A model generated the notes under the pieces. That model saw only the letters and a list, made by a program, of their open reading frames with translations, was not told the origin of the DNA and made no database searches. Position numbers and translations under genes: made by a program. Of a stretch of 64,000 nt of DNA, positions 3,254 to 41,192 are shown piece after piece; positions within the stretch are counted from its first letter, which is position 1, and each line of letters begins with the position of its first letter. Source of the stretch: Branchiostoma lanceolatum. Taxonomy: Eukaryota; Chordata; Leptocardii; Amphioxiformes; Branchiostomatidae. The stretch is from NCBI RefSeq assembly GCF_035083965.1, contig NC_089731.1, positions 9,336,501-9,400,500 of the forward strand, read 5' to 3'.

Positions 3254-4474
3254 ATGGACATGGATATGGCGCTGGGAAACTTGACCTATGCTGTGAATGT
3301 CACAGTCAACGATGAAATGTTTCCATGTTCTAACGGCAGCACGATCAGTGACGAGATGCTCCCTTATTCGGATAACAGCACGATTTTCAGCACCAACGAC
3401 AGCACGATTTTCAGCACCAGCAATGTTTCACCCACGCCTGCTTCTCCCCAGCAGAAGGACTTCGTTGTTGGCATAGCGATTGTCATGGGCCTTCTGGCCG
3501 TGGTGGGAACCACGCTGAACGGAACCGTCATCTTTGCAGTCGGCTTTAACAAAAAGCTCCGAACGGCCACCGGCTGGTTCGTGGCCAATCTAGCGGCGGG
3601 AGACCTCCTGGAGACGGCGGTCTACCTGCCGTTCGGCGTGTACACCGCCATCACCTACCGGGTTCCGTTCCACCCCGGCGTGTGCGCCGCGCTCGGCACC
3701 ATCGGCATCTCCAACAAGTTCACTTCTCTGGCCTGCATGGCGCTCATCGGCTTTCATCGCTACATGCTCATCACCAAGACCAAGTCCACCTACAAGGCAT
3801 TCTTTACCACCAGAAACAACGTTCTTATCGTCCTGCTTGCCTGGCTCGTGTCCTGGGGTGCCGCTATTCCCTTCGTTATTGGCTACGGCTTCAACCGACT
3901 GTCTACGACTGGGACCTGTGTTGCGGCGACTGGGCCTGTTGTGACGACCCGTCGTGCGGTGATCGGGACGCTGTACGCTCTGCCACTTCTCACCATGCTG
4001 TGTAGCTACACCGCCATCTACCGCCATGTTAGGAAAGCGTCCTACAATCCTGAAAACCCCTGTCTTCAAAACCAACGTAAGAAAAATCTTCTGAAAGTGG
4101 CGAAAAATCTGGCAATTCTGGCATGCGTGTTCTGTGTCTTGGTAGGTCCCTCTTGTATTCATGTGGTTTTTGGTACGGGCTGGCCTACCCCTGCGAACGC
4201 GCTAGTCTGGACAATGTACTATGCTAACTGCTGTATCAACGCTTTTCTTCATATCAGAAATAATTCGGATTTTAAGAAATCCTGTCGAAAGATGCTGTTC
4301 TGTCTCCCACCACAGAGAGAGCAAAACACAAACGGTCCGAGACAGGCAAGATTGGGTCCACCCATTGGCCATCGGGTGGAAGGAAATCCCAGTGGAAGTG
4401 CAACCACACAACGTTTAAATGTACCCCGTCTTCAGCCTAGAGAGCCATGTGAGTTACCCACGGTGTCAACTTAG
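3254..4474 (+). CDS. class A-like GPCR, tandem copy 1 (406 aa)
   Basis: Seven-transmembrane receptor, presumably at the plasma membrane; ligand unknown. The extracellular N-terminus (~70 aa) is rich in N-x-S/T sites, with a duplicated NSTIFST/DSTIFST stretch not found in the paralogues. Landmarks: N1.50 at residue 89, D2.50 at 117, C3.25 at 144, P5.50 at 243, P6.50 at 299, and Cys in the tail after TM7 (palmitoylation-type). Usual class A switches are altered: the DRY position is HRY (168-170), CWxP is LVGP, and NPxxY is NAFLH (329-333). The tail ends REPC-x-LPTVST, shared with copies 2 and 3. The NKKLR loop and NA at NPxxY recall melatonin-type receptors, but the resemblance is weak. Coding is in one exon. 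The start was chosen because it heads the block conserved with the paralogues (MD..., then the AT-YAVN segment). Confidence 0.9.
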   Translation: MDMDMALGNLTYAVNVTVNDEMFPCSNGSTISDEMLPYSDNSTIFSTNDSTIFSTSNVSPTPASPQQKDFVVGIAIVMGLLAVVGTTLNGTVIFAVGFNKKLRTATGWFVANLAAGDLLETAVYLPFGVYTAITYRVPFHPGVCAALGTIGISNKFTSLACMALIGFHRYMLITKTKSTYKAFFTTRNNVLIVLLAWLVSWGAAIPFVIGYGFNRLSTTGTCVAATGPVVTTRRAVIGTLYALPLLTMLCSYTAIYRHVRKASYNPENPCLQNQRKKNLLKVAKNLAILACVFCVLVGPSCIHVVFGTGWPTPANALVWTMYYANCCINAFLHIRNNSDFKKSCRKMLFCLPPQREQNTNGPRQARLGPPIGHRVEGNPSGSATTQRLNVPRLQPREPCELPTVST

Positions 4475-5265: not shown

Positions 5266-6486
5266 ATGGATATCGGATTTAAAAACGCAACCTACGCGGT
5301 AAACGCAACTGTCAGCGACTGGATGTTCACATACTCCAACAGCACGGTTTTCAGCACCAACAACAGCTCAATCAATGTTTCACCCACGCCTGCTTCGCCA
5401 CAACAAACGGGATTCACTGTTGGGGTGGCGATTGTCATGGGCCTTCTGGCCGTCGTGGGAACCACGCTGAACGGAACCGTCATTTTCGCTGTCGGGTTTA
5501 GAAAAAAGCTCCGAACGGCCACCAGCTGGTTCGTGGCCAATCTAGCGGCGGGAGACCTCCTGGAGACGGCGGTCTACCTGCCGTTCGGCGTGTACACCGC
5601 CATCACCCACCGGGTTCCGTTCCACCCCGGCGTGTGCGCCGCGCTCGGCACCATCGGCATCTCCAACAAGTTCACTTCGCTGTCCTGCATGGCGCTCATC
5701 GCCTTTCACCGCTACATGCTCATCACCAAGACCAAGTCTACCTACAAGGCCTTCTTTACCACCAGAAACAACGTTTTGATCGTCCTGCTTGCCTGGCTCG
5801 TGTCCTGGACGGCTGCCATTCCCTTCGTCCTCGGCTACGGATTCCTAGGAATGCAGGCGTCCGGCATTTGTGTTGCGGCGGCGGAGTCGTTCGTGATGAC
5901 CCGTGTGATGATCGGGACACTGTACGCGCTGCCACTCCTCATCATGCTGTGCAGCTACACCGCCATCTACCGCCACGTAAGAAACGCTTCCTACAACCCT
6001 GACAACCCCTGCCTCCAAAACCAACAGAGGAAAAATCTTCTGAAAGTGGCGAAAAATCTGGCAGTTCTGGCATGCGTGTTCTGTGTGCTAGTGGGTCCGT
6101 CCTGTGTACTTTTGGTGTCCGGTATGAACTGGCCTGGAGCTGTTAACGCCCTAGTATGGCCTATGTACTATGCCAACTGCTGTATCAATTCCTTTCTTCA
6201 TATTAGAAAGAACCCGGATTTTAGAAAGACTTACCGACGGATGCTGTTCTGTTGCCCGCCACAGAGAGAGCGAAACGAAGACCGCCCGAGGCAGGCAGAT
6301 GTCAGGCCATCTCCGGGTCAGAGGTCGGACGTTAATTCTGATCGACCTTTAGCCCTACAATCTTTCACCCAACAACCTTTAACCCCAAAACCTTTGTCCA
6401 CACAGCTTTTCACCCCCAAACCCTTGACCTCGGACTTTCGTTTAGAGGCTAGAGAACCCTGTTACCTACCTACTGTGTCTAACTAG
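5266..6486 (+). CDS. class A-like GPCR, tandem copy 2 (406 aa)
   Basis: Paralogue of the receptor at 3254-4474, with a shorter N-terminus (~50 aa, several N-glycosylation sequons). N1.50 is residue 69, D2.50 97, C3.25 124, HRY 148-150, P5.50 223, P6.50 279, and the NPxxY position reads NSFLH (309-313). Its C-terminal tail is the longest of the three, with a repeated TPKPL/TQLFTPKPLT segment before the shared ending REPCYLPTVSN. It is intronless in the coding part, behind its own TATA promoter. A poly(A) signal is at 7161. It is nearly identical to copy 3 up to TM5 and then diverges. Ligand unknown; lineage-specific expansion suggests a chemosensory or peptide role, but this is inference. Confidence 0.92.
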   Translation: MDIGFKNATYAVNATVSDWMFTYSNSTVFSTNNSSINVSPTPASPQQTGFTVGVAIVMGLLAVVGTTLNGTVIFAVGFRKKLRTATSWFVANLAAGDLLETAVYLPFGVYTAITHRVPFHPGVCAALGTIGISNKFTSLSCMALIAFHRYMLITKTKSTYKAFFTTRNNVLIVLLAWLVSWTAAIPFVLGYGFLGMQASGICVAAAESFVMTRVMIGTLYALPLLIMLCSYTAIYRHVRNASYNPDNPCLQNQQRKNLLKVAKNLAVLACVFCVLVGPSCVLLVSGMNWPGAVNALVWPMYYANCCINSFLHIRKNPDFRKTYRRMLFCCPPQRERNEDRPRQADVRPSPGQRSDVNSDRPLALQSFTQQPLTPKPLSTQLFTPKPLTSDFRLEAREPCYLPTVSN

Positions 6487-8346: not shown

Positions 8347-9522
8347 ATGGATATTGGATTTAAAAACGCGACCTACGCGGTAAACGGGACTATCAGCGAC
8401 TGGATGTTCACATACTCCAACAGCACGGTTTTCAGCACCAACGACAGCTCCATCAATGTTTCACCCACGCCTGCTTCGCCACAACATACGGGCTTCACTG
8501 TTGGTGTGGCGATTGTCATGGGCCTTCTGGCCGTCGTGGGAACCACACTGAACGGAACCGTCATCTTTGCTGTCGGGTTTAGAAAAAAGCTCCGAACGGC
8601 CACCAGCTGGTTCGTGGCCAATCTAGCGGCGGGAGACCTCCTGGAGACGGCGGTCTACCTGCCGTTCGGCGTGTACACCGCCATCACCCACCGGGTTCCG
8701 TTCCACCCCGGCGTGTGCGCCGCGCTCGGCACCATCGGCATCTCCAACAAGTTCACTTCGCTGTCCTGCATGGCGCTCATCGCCTTTCACCGCTACATGC
8801 TCATCACCAAGACCAAGTCCATCTACAAGGCCTTCTTTACCACCAGAAACAACGTTCTGATCGTCCTGCTGGCCTGGCTCGTGTCCTGGACGGCTGCCAT
8901 TCCCTTCGTCCTCGGCTACGGATTCCTCGGAATGCAGGCGTCCGGCATCTGTGTTGCGGCGACGGAGTCGTTCGTGATGACCCGTGTGATGATCGGGACA
9001 CTGTACGCGCTGCCACTCCTCATCATGCTGTGCAGCTACACCGTCATCTACCGCCACGTAAGAAACGCTTCCTACAACCCTGACAACCCCTGCCTCCAAA
9101 ACCAACAGAGGAAAAATCTTCTGAAAGTGGCGAAAAATCTGGCAGTTCTGGCATGCGTGTTCTGTGTGCTAGTGGGTCCGTCCTGTGTTTTTCAGGCGTC
9201 TGGTATGAACTGGCCTGACCCTGTGAGTGCCCTAGTCTGGATAATGTACTATGCCAACTGCTGTATCAACGCCTATCTTCATATCAGAAGGAACCCGGAT
9301 TTTAGAAAGACTATCCGGCAGATGCTGTTCTGTTGCCCGCCACAGAGAGAGCGAAACGAAGACCGCCCGAGGCAGGCAGATCTTAGGTCATCTGTGGGTC
9401 AGAGGTTGAAACCAAATTCTGATCAACCATTCACCCCGCAACCTATCCGCCCACTAGCTCTGACCTCGAACTTACGTTTTGAGCCCAGAGAACCCCGTTA
9501 CCTACCTGCCGTGTCTAGCTAG
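8347..9522 (+). CDS. class A-like GPCR, tandem copy 3 (391 aa)
   Basis: Closest to copy 2: only about seven replacements in the first ~270 residues, but many in the end of TM6, the third extracellular loop, TM7 and the tail. N1.50 residue 69, D2.50 97, C3.25 124, HRY 148-150, P5.50 223, P6.50 279, NPxxY position NAYLH (309-313). The FCCPP after helix 8 suits palmitoylation. It ends REPRYLPAVSS and lacks the TPKPL tail repeats of copy 2. Single coding exon, own TATA promoter, poly(A) signal at 10421. Ligand not recognisable. Confidence 0.92.
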   Translation: MDIGFKNATYAVNGTISDWMFTYSNSTVFSTNDSSINVSPTPASPQHTGFTVGVAIVMGLLAVVGTTLNGTVIFAVGFRKKLRTATSWFVANLAAGDLLETAVYLPFGVYTAITHRVPFHPGVCAALGTIGISNKFTSLSCMALIAFHRYMLITKTKSIYKAFFTTRNNVLIVLLAWLVSWTAAIPFVLGYGFLGMQASGICVAATESFVMTRVMIGTLYALPLLIMLCSYTVIYRHVRNASYNPDNPCLQNQQRKNLLKVAKNLAVLACVFCVLVGPSCVFQASGMNWPDPVSALVWIMYYANCCINAYLHIRRNPDFRKTIRQMLFCCPPQRERNEDRPRQADLRSSVGQRLKPNSDQPFTPQPIRPLALTSNLRFEPREPRYLPAVSS

Positions 9523-11939: not shown

Positions 11940-14900
11940 CTGCAGAACGAAGTTGAAGGTAATCTGTTTCATGGTGCATTTTTGTCACTGGCATACTGAC
12001 GTCTGCTCCAACAGTGCATGGGTCACCAAGACAAGCACTTGGTAGGGTAGGCCCTACCACAACATTTCTGCTAATCATGCAAAGAAAATAGAACCATATG
12101 CATATTCATAGCGTTGCTGAGGCGTTAATTGCCACTGTTCTTTTTTTCTTATTCCCTTCTAGAGAGTCACTTAACTCCCCCTTCCCTTCCAACGAACGTT
12201 TATAGACTAACAAAAACTCCTTTTCCCCATTAGGTTTCGAAATTGTGACAACATAGGAAGTTACGTACCTCGCTTGAAGTCCGGCATCATTGCCGCATAC
12301 ACGATGTAGTTCACTATAACAGCCGCTTTGGCAATTGCAGCCGGAATAGCTCCCGCAAGGGGTGTTATCAAGTGACCATATCCAGCCCAACCAATCAGAG
12401 CGACGATTGCAAAGGGTGTCCAGGACAGGATGAATAACAGGGTGACCAGGACCCCGACCTTGGCGGTGTGGACGTCGACGTGGCGCCGCTTTTTTGATAT
12501 CTTCTAAAGGGACACAGAGTATTCTTCTTTTACGGTCTATTCAGTACTTTACATTCATATTTATTCCTTCACCAGTATTTAATATGTATATCTTCCATGA
12601 ACTAATTCATATGACTGATATTCTAAACGATTCGCTATAATCGTCGAGCAAGTAATGTTACAAAACTGTCTAAAGCTGCTAAATTGATTTTAACGTGACA
12701 CAGATTCAATCATAACTTATCCGTCAATTTCACAAACATCGAGACTGAACTACTCGTACCTGAAACGTCCTTCGGTCCATCATGCCTTTGAGCGCGAGGG
12801 TGCTGCGACGTGCGGCCCGCCAGATGGCGTAGTAGCAAATTATCATCACCACCATCGGTAGGACGAAGACTGCTAATGTCAGGGCCATGATGTACCATCT
12901 TTGGAATGCATTATCTGTACAAACGGAACACAAAACTACACCGGTCAAGAAAAGGAAGGCTCAGGAGAGACGAGAGACACATGTGTTTTTGGGCAACGTA
13001 TTTGATCAAGTCCCCGGAAGCGTTCGGGACGCATCAGCGAAGTTCGACCGCGCTAGGGAGATTTGAAAAATGGCTGCTCCCCCAGCCGTGCCGATAGCGC
13101 GACAATTTTCTGTGAGCTCTCACATCACAACGACGTCGTATTTTCGCATGATGGACGTCGCTATACATTGTGATAGTGTTGTTTGAACGAACTAATCATG
13201 TATGGAAATTACTGAATAGATTGACTTTCAAAATCCGATTTTCGGGGGATAAAACTGCTTTACCTTCCTATAATGTTTTTATCTCCATGGAAAATGGAGA
13301 AATTGTTTTGGGTGTGTCTCTCTGTGTGTCTGACTGCCTGTGTTCCCGGTGAGCCAATCCGAGATGCCCGTGCCTAGATTCGTCACGTGATATTTAAATT
13401 TTTCGTCACGATGACGTCATGTTCGACAGGTGTTGCATTCTCGATGTAGCGTGGTCGGTTCGACGTGTCCAAAAGTTCCAAATTTTAGCACCCCAAAATT
13501 AAAGTTTTCTCACATTTTCGCGGAAATATTTTTTTTACAAAAATGCAGAGAAGGTACTCTCGAATAACATGGACGAGAATGGACGGACAAAGTTTGGTGA
13601 GCAGCTAATGGTACATAATGAAAAAGAAAATGTTTGAAAGTGTTTTCTCAGTTTCTTTATAATCCAAAGCCCAATGTCGAAAAAAAAAGTACAGATAAAT
13701 GCTGGCTAAGAGAGTGTACCTGACAAGTAGTTGAAGGTGCAGCCTGTCTGGTATTTCTGCATGGACCACTTGTTCCAGCCGAAGAACGGAGGTAAACACC
13801 AGATGAGGGACCACAGCCACACCACCGCCACACTGATGGTCACCCTCCGGCCTGTAGTAGGACAGTAATGGTATAGATACATGGATATAAGAATATTGTG
13901 ATGAACCAGTGATGAACCGAGACGAGGGGGGATACAAGCTCAGCCACATTTGGGATTACGTTCTCGCCGCAAAAGCGCCACCTACATCGGCTACTTATAG
14001 CGGTGAGAAGCAGTACTCCAGTCAGAAGCTCTGAAGAAGGTGTCTGACAGACACCGAAACGTCAGCAGGTGAGATTACCTGGTTGTGTTAAAAGAAACTC
14101 CAAATATCCTATGGATATAAGACATTGTCACTGCGTTATATATAGTCCGTAAATGATTTGATGACAAGTAGTCAATTTACAGCATCTTGGAATATATAGT
14201 GTTTAAAACAAGACACGAACTCTGACTTTTGTAATCAACAAATTGATCGATACCCTGCCATGCAGATGAGTTACATGTTTTAACCTAAATTCTATCTAAT
14301 CGACTGTTATTTTTACGTGCTCTTAAGATTGTCCTTTTTTAGACATGTAAAGAATCTAACGCCTTTTAGTTGTTTCTTTCAAGACATGTCTACCAAGCTG
14401 ATTTTACAGTAAAGATTGACTGATATATGTAGCTTTATTAGTTCCCAAAACAACAGCAACAACAACAATGGAACAACATTCATCAAAAAGCTTACCCCGA
14501 TTAAGTTTACCGGTCAACGGCATAGTGATAGCGATGCACCGGTCGAAGGCGATGGCCGCCAGCGTGCAGATAGACTGTGTGCCGAACCACCCCGCCATGA
14601 AACCGGTCATCTGGCAAACTGTAGGCAGTATAATCAAGGGTCAAACAAGTTCGTGTTGAAACAAGCAATATGGCAAACTGTCCATAAACTTTTGCAAGGC
14701 TCGATTAGGCAAATCATCTAAACTGAGTAATCGAGATTTGATAATCAATTCAGATCAGTGATCATCAGTCATTAACCAAGATCACAGTGAAGATTTTTAC
14801 GTTTGCTGTGGGTCAAAGGTGAAAGATTACGGTGATATGTTTACGGCGCTCAGCGTATTGACAGACAAAACCCATTTATTCTATGGTAACATTTCTAGTC

Positions 14901-19460: not shown

Positions 19461-21613
19461 CGTGCCACTAGGCATTACAAGGTGAACAAAAACATCCTCT
19501 AGGCCAAACCCATGACGTAGGTCTGACCTTCTCTATCTCAAGAGTGATTACGCAGTTTGAATGGCCTGGTATTACGTAGTACATACATAGCCGTTCAGGG
19601 TTCGATTTCCAGGTCTCTCGGTCGGCCTAAGCCTATCTTATCTAAAGCAACCAGTCATTGTAATATAATTGGAATAACGTTTGAAACGGTACCCAAGGTA
19701 ATAATGCTATTAGCACCTAAGCATAATCGGATTCACAATCGGACTGGTTTTTCAGAAGATACAATACACCGTGGATAGGATGTAATGGGATTCGAGCTCT
19801 GCCTACACATTTGTATAATACTCTCCAGTAGACTATCATGGTCTCCAGCCACCCAGAATCGACTCCAAAATGGTGATCAATAGAAAGCAAGAGCAGTAAT
19901 CTAGTAGAGTGTTAAATGAGATGCGTATGATACATTTATATTCATGTAAGGATAAAGATTTGATTCTGGTCACGCGACGCGCGTCTAAAAGTGTTGACTA
20001 TAAAACGCTCAGACGTGGCGTTTGTCTCATAAATTCTTTATGCATGTACTTTGAAAAATAAAACGTTGATTCTACTCACGTTATGGAGTCGACATGGGTG
20101 AACGATATTTGATCAGAAGGAAATTTTCCTTTCTTAACTTGTCCTCTTGGGACCTACCTCTGAGTCTTCCATCATTAACGCCTGTACTCCGGGGAAACGT
20201 ACATGAGAGCTATTCTTCACATTCGTAATGTCTTCGGTTTAACCTGCCTAGGGTTACGGGATATAGCGTCGTTGAGTCGCTATCATTTTTGTGCCTAGAC
20301 ATCGTGGTACCTGAGAGACATCCTCGGAATCCGGGATTTTAACAAACAAGTCAGTGAACTTCCAAATACATATTTATACATGTTTTGGAGAGACACAAAC
20401 ATGGATGTTCAGATTTCCTTCGACGAGCAAGAGACTTCACACGATAGACCCGATAATTTAGCTGGATTAAAAGCGAATGAATGAACTTATCCAAATCAGA
20501 AATCAGAGTTCCCAGGCCCAAATCAACAAAAAATGGCTCTTTGGTAGACATCTAGATAGAGATGTGGATGTAAAGAGGTTAAAATATTGACAATGTTTAA
20601 AACCTCTATTACAGTTCGGTAAAATAGGGTGTGTCTAGCAAAGCACATACAAAAGGGTACTCAATCATATCATGATGTAGGGACTTTTTTTTGCTTCACT
20701 GAAATAAATAAAAAAATGTCTAACAATCTTGGACGTAAATAATATCATATGTGCTGGGCGTGTCACCCTCGGGCGTAGCTCACGAGTTTCGCCACGCTTC
20801 AGTGGTTGATTATATAAACCAAAGATGTTGCGTACATCAACGCGTTATGGGCCCGCCAAACATTTCCTAACCTTTTGTCTTGGTTAGGTAACCTTCAAGT
20901 GCTGCTTACGTGTGCGGGAACATTCTACAGTGAAACTGAAAATGATGAAAATGCCTCAGGGAAACCACTGATTCCTATCGTCAGTTCCTTAACCGACGTT
21001 AACATTTCTGTGAGCGTCTGGCTCATGACAACCCGTTAAAGTTAAGGGGACAATGCGCCGAATTAACAGGAAACAACAGTGGTTTGTATGTGGTGGAATA
21101 TGTGCTGTAGCACCTGTTCCGATAAAACGTGCACGTTGTCAGTCGCTCAGTTCAAGAGATCAAGAGCTAGACCCACTCCGCTTTGATACAGCCGGACAGC
21201 CTTCTCTGTGCTTTTTGTTCTGTTCTTTCTTTTAAATCTTGATCTTGCAGAATCAAGGGAAGATCTTAAACAACCCAACACACACCACGCACAGTACAAA
21301 GTCTACCATGTTATGCGCGATTTGTCCTTTATGATATAAGTACGACCATTGCATACAATGAACAACGGCCAACGCGTACAAGTGCTGTGATGGGAACATT
21401 TTCTAGGTGCATCATAAATGTTTGTAAAAATGTGAAACCTTATAGTATATATAAGTTGTGGCTAGCATTAGGTCAAGTATTGCCAAGGCAGTCAGATAGG
21501 TCCGTATTAAATGTCACATCTGGACACCCCCCTTTACAACAGAGGCTGCGGCCACCGAGCGAACAAAGGTTTGACAGATCGCTTAAATAAAGAATTACGT
21601 GGATAGAGAAGGA
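19461..21613. other. intergenic, no gene recognised
   Basis: No supported exon. A weak box B-like GGTTCGATTTCC near 19598 may mark another old SINE, but no matching A box is convincing. Confidence 0.4.
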
Positions 21614-21922
21614 ATTATTTGACGTTTTGTGTGTTCTGTTGTATTTTAAAAGATGCATCTTGCATCATATTCCAAATATGGATAAAGAACTAATTATTTG
21701 ACGTTTTGTGTGTTTTGTGGTATTTTAAAAGATACACCTTGCATCATATTCCAAATATGAATAAAGAACTAATTATTTGACGTTTTGTGTGTTTTGTGGT
21801 ATTTTAAAAGATACACCTTGCATCATATTCCAAATATGAATAAAGAACTAATTATTTGACGTTTTGTGTGTTTTGTGGTATTTCAAAAGATACATCTTGC
21901 ATCATATTCCAAATATGAAATC
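21614..21922. repeat. 79-bp tandem repeat, ~4 copies
   Basis: Unit starts ATTATTTGACGTTTTGTGTG; copies begin at 21614, 21693, 21772 and 21851, and the last is incomplete. Copies 2-4 are almost identical while copy 1 has more changes, as expected for expansion from one end. Confidence 0.85.
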
Positions 21923-26536: not shown

Positions 26537-27841
<1,305 letters not shown>

Positions 27842-31748: not shown

Positions 31749-33053
<1,305 letters not shown>

Positions 33054-39530: not shown

Positions 39531-41192
39531 TAGTTCTCAATGTTAGGTTTGCCAAGTAATTGTGTAGATCGATTAGATTTTATTCCATGTAAATCAGAAT
39601 CAGGCCTAAAAGAATGCCTGAGGACACTGGACCAATTTTGTTCCCTATGGAAATTATCAATCAATAAGAACAAGACAAAAGTAATGATTTTCTCAAAAAA
39701 GGGACGGACAGCCAATTATAAGCATTCTCCTTTCAAATCTCAAGGTCAAGCTTTAGAGATAGCTAAATTTTACACATACTTAGGAGTGGACATTACACCG
39801 TCAGGATCTTTTAGTCGTGCCATTAAACAGTTAAGACTGAAAGCTTTACGTGCCTCTTTTAGATTAAAATCATTATTATCATCAAACTCAAATCCGTCAA
39901 TCTCCCTAGCTATTGATCTGTTTAACAGTTTGGTGAAACCTATTCTGCTTTATTGCAGTGAACTTACTGGAATAAATGTGCAATGTAGAGACCTAATTTT
40001 CAAAGGGATTAAGGAATATCCCAATGAAAAGATCAGAACATCTATAGATACAATCCTCCGTCCGATATTGGGGTCGGATGTTGGTTTACTGAGAGTTAGT
40101 CGCTTAGGAAGGATATCAGACCCCTCGTCTACAGTTGCTCGCCCTGTTGTTGTTCGATTCAAGAAGTATAGTGACAAACTGAACGTGATTTACCAGTCAG
40201 ACACTCTGTTAAGGAACCAGAATGTCACACTAGATCAACCAAAAATTTCCTATGAAATTCCTGACTTGGAATATGTACTTTTAAATTTTTGCAAAATTAT
40301 ACTACGTGTTCCAAAAAGTTCTATAAATGCCGCCGTAAGGGGTGAATTGGGCGTATTCCCGTTGTTCATTGACAGTCAAACACAGTTGATTAAATACTGG
40401 CTAAGATTGAAGAATTCACCTAATGACAGGATTGTTAAAAAAGCATACGACACTTCAGTCGAAGAAGAACATGACTGGGCTACTCACGTTCAAGATATAT
40501 TATGTAGACATGGGTTCCAAAATGTTTGGCTTAACCCCGCAGTTAATGCCAATTATTTTGGAATCATATTTAAAGAACGTCTGAAAGACTCATTTCTCTC
40601 TGGCTGGAGGGAACAACTTAGACATTCCAGTAAACTACACGCATATTCTAAAATCAAAAAGCACTTTGGCATGGAAACATATCTCACATCAATTCATAAT
40701 AAACTGTTTGCAAATAGCATAACAAAGCTGAGAATCAGTGCACATTGCTTAGAAGTTGAAAAGGGTCGACACCACAACACACCAGCCACTCAGAGATTGT
40801 GTCCAACATGTAATGGAAGTGTTGAAGATGAATTCCACTTTGTGATGAATTGTCCAACTTATAGCAAAGAGAGAGATATGCTTTTACAGACTATTACTAC
40901 TAAGACAAACTTCACCCTATCTGGTACACACAGCGATATTTTCTATGTACTGTTGTCATGTCCGACTCCTATATCCATGTACATAGGTCAATTTCTCCAT
41001 AAATCATTCGAAAAGCGAGACAGAATTACCCATACTTGACTATATATTGTAACAAATACACTGGTTTCGAAAATATTTTGTACTTAGAATTGTAGGATAG
41101 ATTAGCCTTGTAGAACAGTTTGTTGATTTCATGCCATACATTGTACCATGTACGATTGTTGAGCAATAAAGTACACTTCACTTCACTTGTAA
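39531..41192 (+). mobile_element. 5'-truncated LINE (non-LTR retrotransposon)
   Basis: Holds the C-terminal part of a non-LTR reverse transcriptase and a 3' end GAGCAATAAAGTACACTTCA with CACTT repeats instead of a poly(A) tail, as in CR1/L2/Jockey-group elements. The 5' part, including endonuclease and RT catalytic centre, is missing. Related tails lie at 15721 and 36647. Confidence 0.75.
39540..41039 (+). CDS. LINE ORF fragment: RT thumb and C-terminal zinc-finger region (499 aa)
   Basis: Starts about where the YADD box would be (no such box is present); SESGLKECLRTLDQFCSLWK and LSINKNKTKVMIFSKKG are typical of the palm-to-thumb transition in Jockey/CR1-type RTs. KFYTYLGVDITPSGSF and KPILLYCSELTG follow. 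Near residues 418-445 is CPTCNGSVEDEFHFVMNCP, the usual C-terminal zinc-binding motif. The frame is open for 499 codons with an in-frame stop just before the Met, so it is a recent truncated copy and cannot act as an RT on its own. Confidence 0.8.
   Translation: MLGLPSNCVDRLDFIPCKSESGLKECLRTLDQFCSLWKLSINKNKTKVMIFSKKGRTANYKHSPFKSQGQALEIAKFYTYLGVDITPSGSFSRAIKQLRLKALRASFRLKSLLSSNSNPSISLAIDLFNSLVKPILLYCSELTGINVQCRDLIFKGIKEYPNEKIRTSIDTILRPILGSDVGLLRVSRLGRISDPSSTVARPVVVRFKKYSDKLNVIYQSDTLLRNQNVTLDQPKISYEIPDLEYVLLNFCKIILRVPKSSINAAVRGELGVFPLFIDSQTQLIKYWLRLKNSPNDRIVKKAYDTSVEEEHDWATHVQDILCRHGFQNVWLNPAVNANYFGIIFKERLKDSFLSGWREQLRHSSKLHAYSKIKKHFGMETYLTSIHNKLFANSITKLRISAHCLEVEKGRHHNTPATQRLCPTCNGSVEDEFHFVMNCPTYSKERDMLLQTITTKTNFTLSGTHSDIFYVLLSCPTPISMYIGQFLHKSFEKRDRITHT

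Follow-up and report, generated by a model that had tools for sequence, protein, structure and literature searches.

The insert and its opsin intron

The locus lies within an opsin gene on the minus strand of the window, by which we mean the whole 64,000-nucleotide (64-kb) stretch of Branchiostoma lanceolatum DNA that was analysed. Three of the four exon frames on this strand match 7tm_1 in Pfam, two of them above the curated cut-off, and translations of the exons, once joined, have 278 matches among PDB sequences with E values up to 1e-10. The rhodopsin entries 4ww3, 2ziy and 2z73, which we take to be squid, lead these matches. One intron of the gene holds a short insert bounded by direct repeats, and the features discussed below are the following.

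13852 to 14510, minus strand: opsin intron of 659 nt, GT...AG, holding the insert (in-frame splice ...MPLTG/RRVTIS...)
13881 to 13892, no strand: left copy of the target duplication, ATGGATATAAGA (exact match to 14111-14122)
13893 to 14110, plus strand: 218-bp insert, very probably a 5′-truncated copy of a Penelope-like element (PLE) (bounded by the repeats; match to the PAc model at 14016-14081)
13898 to 13907 and 13909 to 13918, plus strand: two copies of GTGATGAACC, an 11-bp step duplication beside the 5′ end of the insert
13909 to 14034, plus strand: open frame VMNRDEGGYKLSHIWDYVLAAKAPPTSATYSGEKQYSSQKL and stop, presumably the terminal part of a PLE endonuclease ORF (translation; putative identity)
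14028 to 14066, plus strand: minimal type I hammerhead (descriptor, comparison with PAc, PAc model)
14028 to 14030 (GCT) with 14064 to 14066 (AGC), plus strand: possible stem I
14031 to 14037, plus strand: CTGAAGA of the core, followed by the unpaired A at 14038, stem-loop II at 14039 to 14055 and GAAACGTC at 14056 to 14063
After 14063, plus strand: predicted cut
14064 to 14110, plus strand: 47 nt from the predicted cut to the 3′ end of the insert, possibly the beginning of the following unit as far as an internal reverse-transcription start
14111 to 14122, no strand: right copy of the target duplication, 12 bp (repeat comparison)

The initial annotation described a 218-bp insertion inside the opsin gene, with 12-bp target duplications that define its ends. 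The ends are borne out, in that the two ATGGATATAAGA repeats match exactly and stand directly at both edges of the insert. Its position in the gene is also correct and can be narrowed to the intron, where the target duplication begins 29 nt from the acceptor end; however, the ribozyme is on the strand opposite to the gene. Because it is antisense to the opsin pre-mRNA, any activity would need antisense transcription, and most likely the hammerhead does nothing in the intron now.

A pair of exact 12-mers is not in itself rare in a window of this size, since pairs spaced 100-400 nt apart occur at a mean of 1.77 per window in 100 dinucleotide shuffles. For the two 60-nt flanks of the insert, a match of at least 12 was reached in none of 4000 mononucleotide shuffles, and it is unlikely that a 12-base repeat was placed by chance at the edges of a hammerhead-like motif. 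The insert is a single unit: there is no second copy of the 218 bp within the 64-kb window, and Tandem Repeats Finder, which returned 10 rows for the window, finds no tandem array there. Its overall predicted fold is unremarkable (z -1.10). At the 3′ junction, a short palindrome (ATATCC-TAT-GGATAT, 14104-14118) straddles the boundary between insert and target copy; it is possibly a product of chance, or possibly tied to priming or target choice.

Other features of the window are recorded here for completeness. Three similar long ORFs stand in a row at 3254-4474, 5266-6486 and 8347-9522 (406, 406 and 391 aa); the first matches 7tm_1 (Pfam, E 1e-30) and the other two are alike by eye, which suggests an intronless receptor array. 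Two pieces of actin-like genes, separated by about 5.2 kb (26546-27841 and 31758-33053), each with ORFs of 239 and 164 aa, appear to be a tandem duplication, the first copy matching Actin in Pfam. A 79-bp unit is arrayed in tandem at 21613-21919 (3.9 copies, 96% matches; Tandem Repeats Finder). Finally, a 499-aa ORF at 39540-41039 is probably an old retrotransposon, with a weak RVT_1 match (E 0.00025) below the curated cut-off.

A hammerhead-like core with one extra base

The CUGANGA and GAAA elements of the core are as first described. Stem II, which had been given as 6 bp, is instead a 7-bp helix (GGTGTCT/AGACACC) with the three-nucleotide loop GAC (a one-nucleotide loop would give 8 complementary bases), and the initial annotation also missed A14038, the one unpaired base that separates CUGAAGA from stem II. 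A descriptor that allows either 0 or 1 extra base at this point, followed by a helix of 4 bp or more, GAAA and NGUH in that order, has one match in the window, which is the insert, and no match in 300 shuffled windows. A canonical hammerhead is ruled out, as the strict descriptor without the extra base has no match in the window. Similarly, Rfam is blank for the window at gathering thresholds, and for 13700-14300 it is blank up to E 5. Both blanks arise because the unpaired A precedes stem II.

How such a core would reach an active form is a separate question. When the whole insert is folded as a single RNA, the predicted pair probabilities are 0.80-0.98 for stem II and 0 for stem I. A two-pair stem III without a loop cannot close inside one molecule; ACGU is self-complementary, so that stem III could form between two molecules. 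A dimer of this kind would need two RNAs, because the insert is one unit with one motif. By simple predicted energies the active dimer is not favoured: in its drawn form it comes to -23.7 kcal/mol, against -33.0 for a pair of monomers and -44.1 for the most stable dimer.

A closer standard of comparison is PAc (Poseidon_Ac), a PLE of Anolis carolinensis with a published RNA sequence (PMC11167929). The PAc hammerhead is CUGAGGA-U-GCCUGC...GUGGGC-GAAACGUCAGG. Common to PAc and the insert are CUGANGA, one unpaired base, a stem II of 6-7 bp, GAAACGUCAG and a weak stem I of 3 bp. A covariance model was built from PAc alone, a single sequence entered twice, so that its calibration is rough. The sole strong match of this model in the 64 kb is 14016-14081, at 26.3 bits and a rough E value of 6.6e-6, and the next of the 26 matches listed scores 14.9 bits. 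With the structure removed from the model, the insert still ranks first, weakly (10.2 bits, E 0.039). The earlier reading of a retroposed unit with a target duplication is supported, and this match supports a minimal, PLE-like type I hammerhead within it; the covariance search that had been proposed as its check gives background with the Rfam models and the 26.3 bits with the PLE model.

Alignments point to the same region. When 14009-14110 is aligned to the region of the PAc ORF start, its score is reached in 1 of 2000 shuffles, and for the whole insert against PAc a stringent local score is equalled in 61 of 2000, a weak result. The 47-nt 3′ part by itself gives a non-significant local alignment to PAc (426 of 2000 shuffles as good), which taken alone proves nothing. 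A MAFFT alignment of PAc and the insert was set aside, the two cores being out of register. In sequence and structure combined, the hammerhead region of the insert is very much like that of PAc.

These results bear directly on whether an unrelated repeat pair merely flanks a chance hammerhead-like string. Repeat pairs at such spacing are common enough for this (about 1.8 per window), and the core pattern does occur in large collections, at 3 loci in viral_contigs and 29 in genome_contigs; however, stem II exceeds 3 bp at none of these 32 loci, against 7 bp here, and coincidence would also have to account for the absence of descriptor matches in 300 shuffles, the E value of the PAc model and the flank match reached in 0 of 4000 shuffles. 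We regard such a coincidence as extremely improbable. The 32 loci, all viral-collection or prokaryote records, were considered as relatives of the insert and rejected as chance occurrences. The top score of the PAc model on them (260,315 bases) is 13.6 bits, and 26 of the 32 sit within 120 or more codons free of stops. Among them are four near-identical 32-base core-pattern strings on a Sutterella chromosome (L005 6030, L007 2947, L019 282 and L023 5474), which lie in short stop-free spans, have no stem II and are probably a bacterial repeat.

The flanking segments and the origin of the insert

Upstream of the core, a frame of 41 codons (NRDEGGYKLSHIWDYVL...QKL) ends at a stop that is the UGA of the ribozyme's own CUGAAGA. 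NRD-x-GG is the usual last stretch of PLE endonuclease proteins, and the frame is a putative C-terminus of one. Searches of Pfam, viral contigs and PDB sequences give no relative of the peptide; single weak matches are to plasmids (E 6) and phages (E 10), all these collections being poor in animal retroelements, and its peptide strings give unrelated matches at most in the literature. A frame of this length is unremarkable and no evidence by itself; one of 73 codons lies on the opposite strand at 13843-14061.

Downstream of the core, another 47 nt follow the predicted cut before the insert ends. As described in PMC11167929, PAc reverse transcription starts inside its RNA, downstream of the hammerhead, at 111-118 nt into the ORF and at an adjacent site, the interval between them being an optional tail of 30-40 bp. 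The insert likewise has its hammerhead just upstream of its end, which is compatible with the internal reverse-transcription start of PAc. When five PAc end points were tried against the 47 nt, +85 was best, with 34 of 1000 shuffles as good (60, 84, 247 and 259 for the others). It may be, by analogy, that the end of the insert is the counterpart of the nearer PAc start. The two elements differ in other respects. In PAc a 126-nt UTR is followed by an ORF whose AUG overlaps the core, whereas in the insert an open frame ends in the core, there is no AUG at that point, and there is no reverse transcriptase or endonuclease domain.

Taken together, a probable ORF end, a hammerhead, a 47-nt stretch after it and a target duplication make up the anatomy of a 5′-truncated PLE, and we consider it very probable that the insert is a dead copy of this kind, lying antisense in the opsin intron. 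Most likely it is an ordinary genomic fossil and not a new kind of mobile element. The initial annotation had held that the unit was not a truncated long element, a claim not supported by the open frame leading up to the ribozyme, the PAc-like hammerhead and the end 47 nt past the cut. We infer the truncation from the frame itself and not from comparison with a full copy; 5′ truncation on insertion is the rule for PLEs (PMC8969392). Endonuclease-containing PLEs have an ORF with a telomerase-like reverse transcriptase and a GIY-YIG endonuclease, of which the insert has at most the 41-codon end piece; no longer copy and no reverse transcriptase or GIY-YIG part of one was seen, nor are there pLTRs on both sides or tandem copies in the window. 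With one unit present, we class the locus as a PLE fragment and not as a full PLE; tandem copies are not required of a short truncated one.

A plausible scenario begins with a PLE RNA that would span the junction of two tandem copies, and would thus hold the end of the ORF, the pLTR with its hammerhead, and the start of the next unit. The PLE nuclease would cut an AT-rich target, reverse transcription would then begin at the internal start, shortly beyond the hammerhead, and the cDNA would reach about 218 nt before synthesis stopped within the final part of the ORF. The 12-bp target duplication would be left by repair. The 11-bp step duplication of GTGATGAACC might be a trace of slippage or of re-reading of the template at the truncated end. 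In the element itself, the minimal hammerhead would cut with the help of either a second RNA, through ACGU-ACGU pairing, or the PLE protein, one of these being needed because stem III has no loop. PMC11167929 gives several findings on PAc: the PAc cut was shown to be of the hammerhead type through partial rescue by C3G/G8C, PAc RNA without the PAc protein gave no cleavage, hammerhead mutants left insertion in vitro unchanged, and no RNA-seq ends were found at the PAc cut site.

Two further origins within the PLE world have to be weighed. The first is that the insert belongs to a PLE-derived family of short, non-autonomous elements, in effect a ribozyme-bearing SINE with a unit of about 218 bp that borrows PLE proteins. 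The unit is short and complete-looking, it has its own target duplication, and neither another PLE part adjoining it nor a second copy is seen in the window; nonetheless, the single copy in the window also speaks against a family, and the 5′ end lies inside apparent coding sequence and beside the step duplication, as truncation predicts. In addition, ARAGORN finds no tRNA in 13700-14300, and none of the 22 B-box-like matches of the window falls in the insert, the Pol III-type heads looked for being tRNA-like ones and B boxes. Such a family is therefore unlikely, and equally so is its stricter form, in which many copies would share both ends, each having kept no more than the last part of the endonuclease ORF, its minimal hammerhead and the site where reverse transcription starts. 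The earlier label of a SINE-sized retroposon is not supported: frame, hammerhead and 3′ stretch read as a truncated PLE, and neither a tRNA nor a B-box-like match falls in the insert.

The second is that a longer PLE was inserted and that its inside was lost later, by deletion or by pLTR recombination, so that truncation would not date from the insertion itself. Solo pLTRs are known among Penelope copies of A. vaga, which have target duplications of 8 and 9 bp (PMC3846280). An exact target duplication at both ends, however, better suits a single insertion event, and the left end appears to fall within ORF-like sequence and not at the edge of a pLTR, which makes later loss a very unlikely origin.

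Comparison with known ribozyme-bearing elements

The size and layout of the insert also recall the metazoan non-LTR retrozymes, which like the insert are small retroposed units with type I hammerheads. By the description in PMC7229834, its size falls inside the published range of about 170-400 nt, and target duplications are possible in retrozymes. The same description has them as tandem repeats with canonical hammerheads and circular RNA, none of which is seen at the insert. Membership among retrozymes would call for tandem repeats of 150-450 bp, and the insert consists of one unit; moreover, its core is non-canonical, with no strict match and an Rfam blank, and its stem III is loopless. There is accordingly very little likelihood that the insert is a monomer of such a small circular-RNA retroelement.

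A truncated PLE remains the preferred reading, and besides PAc the close parallels are the minimal type I hammerheads of PLEs and Terminons, compared here by their review descriptions (PMC7761336 and PMC6155905). These hammerheads likewise have no loop on helix III and are expected to act as dimers, and they are reported to be dispersed through many animal genomes in thousands of copies. The insert has one motif in one unit. Because such hammerheads have already been reported in thousands (PMC7761336), the insert matters little by itself. It is a tidy example in which the probable end of an ORF, a hammerhead and a nearby 3′ end are found within one short unit. The one-base spacer that hid the motif from both Rfam and the strict descriptor is common to the insert and the biochemically tested PAc ribozyme, and screens for canonical cores may therefore undercount motifs of this kind.
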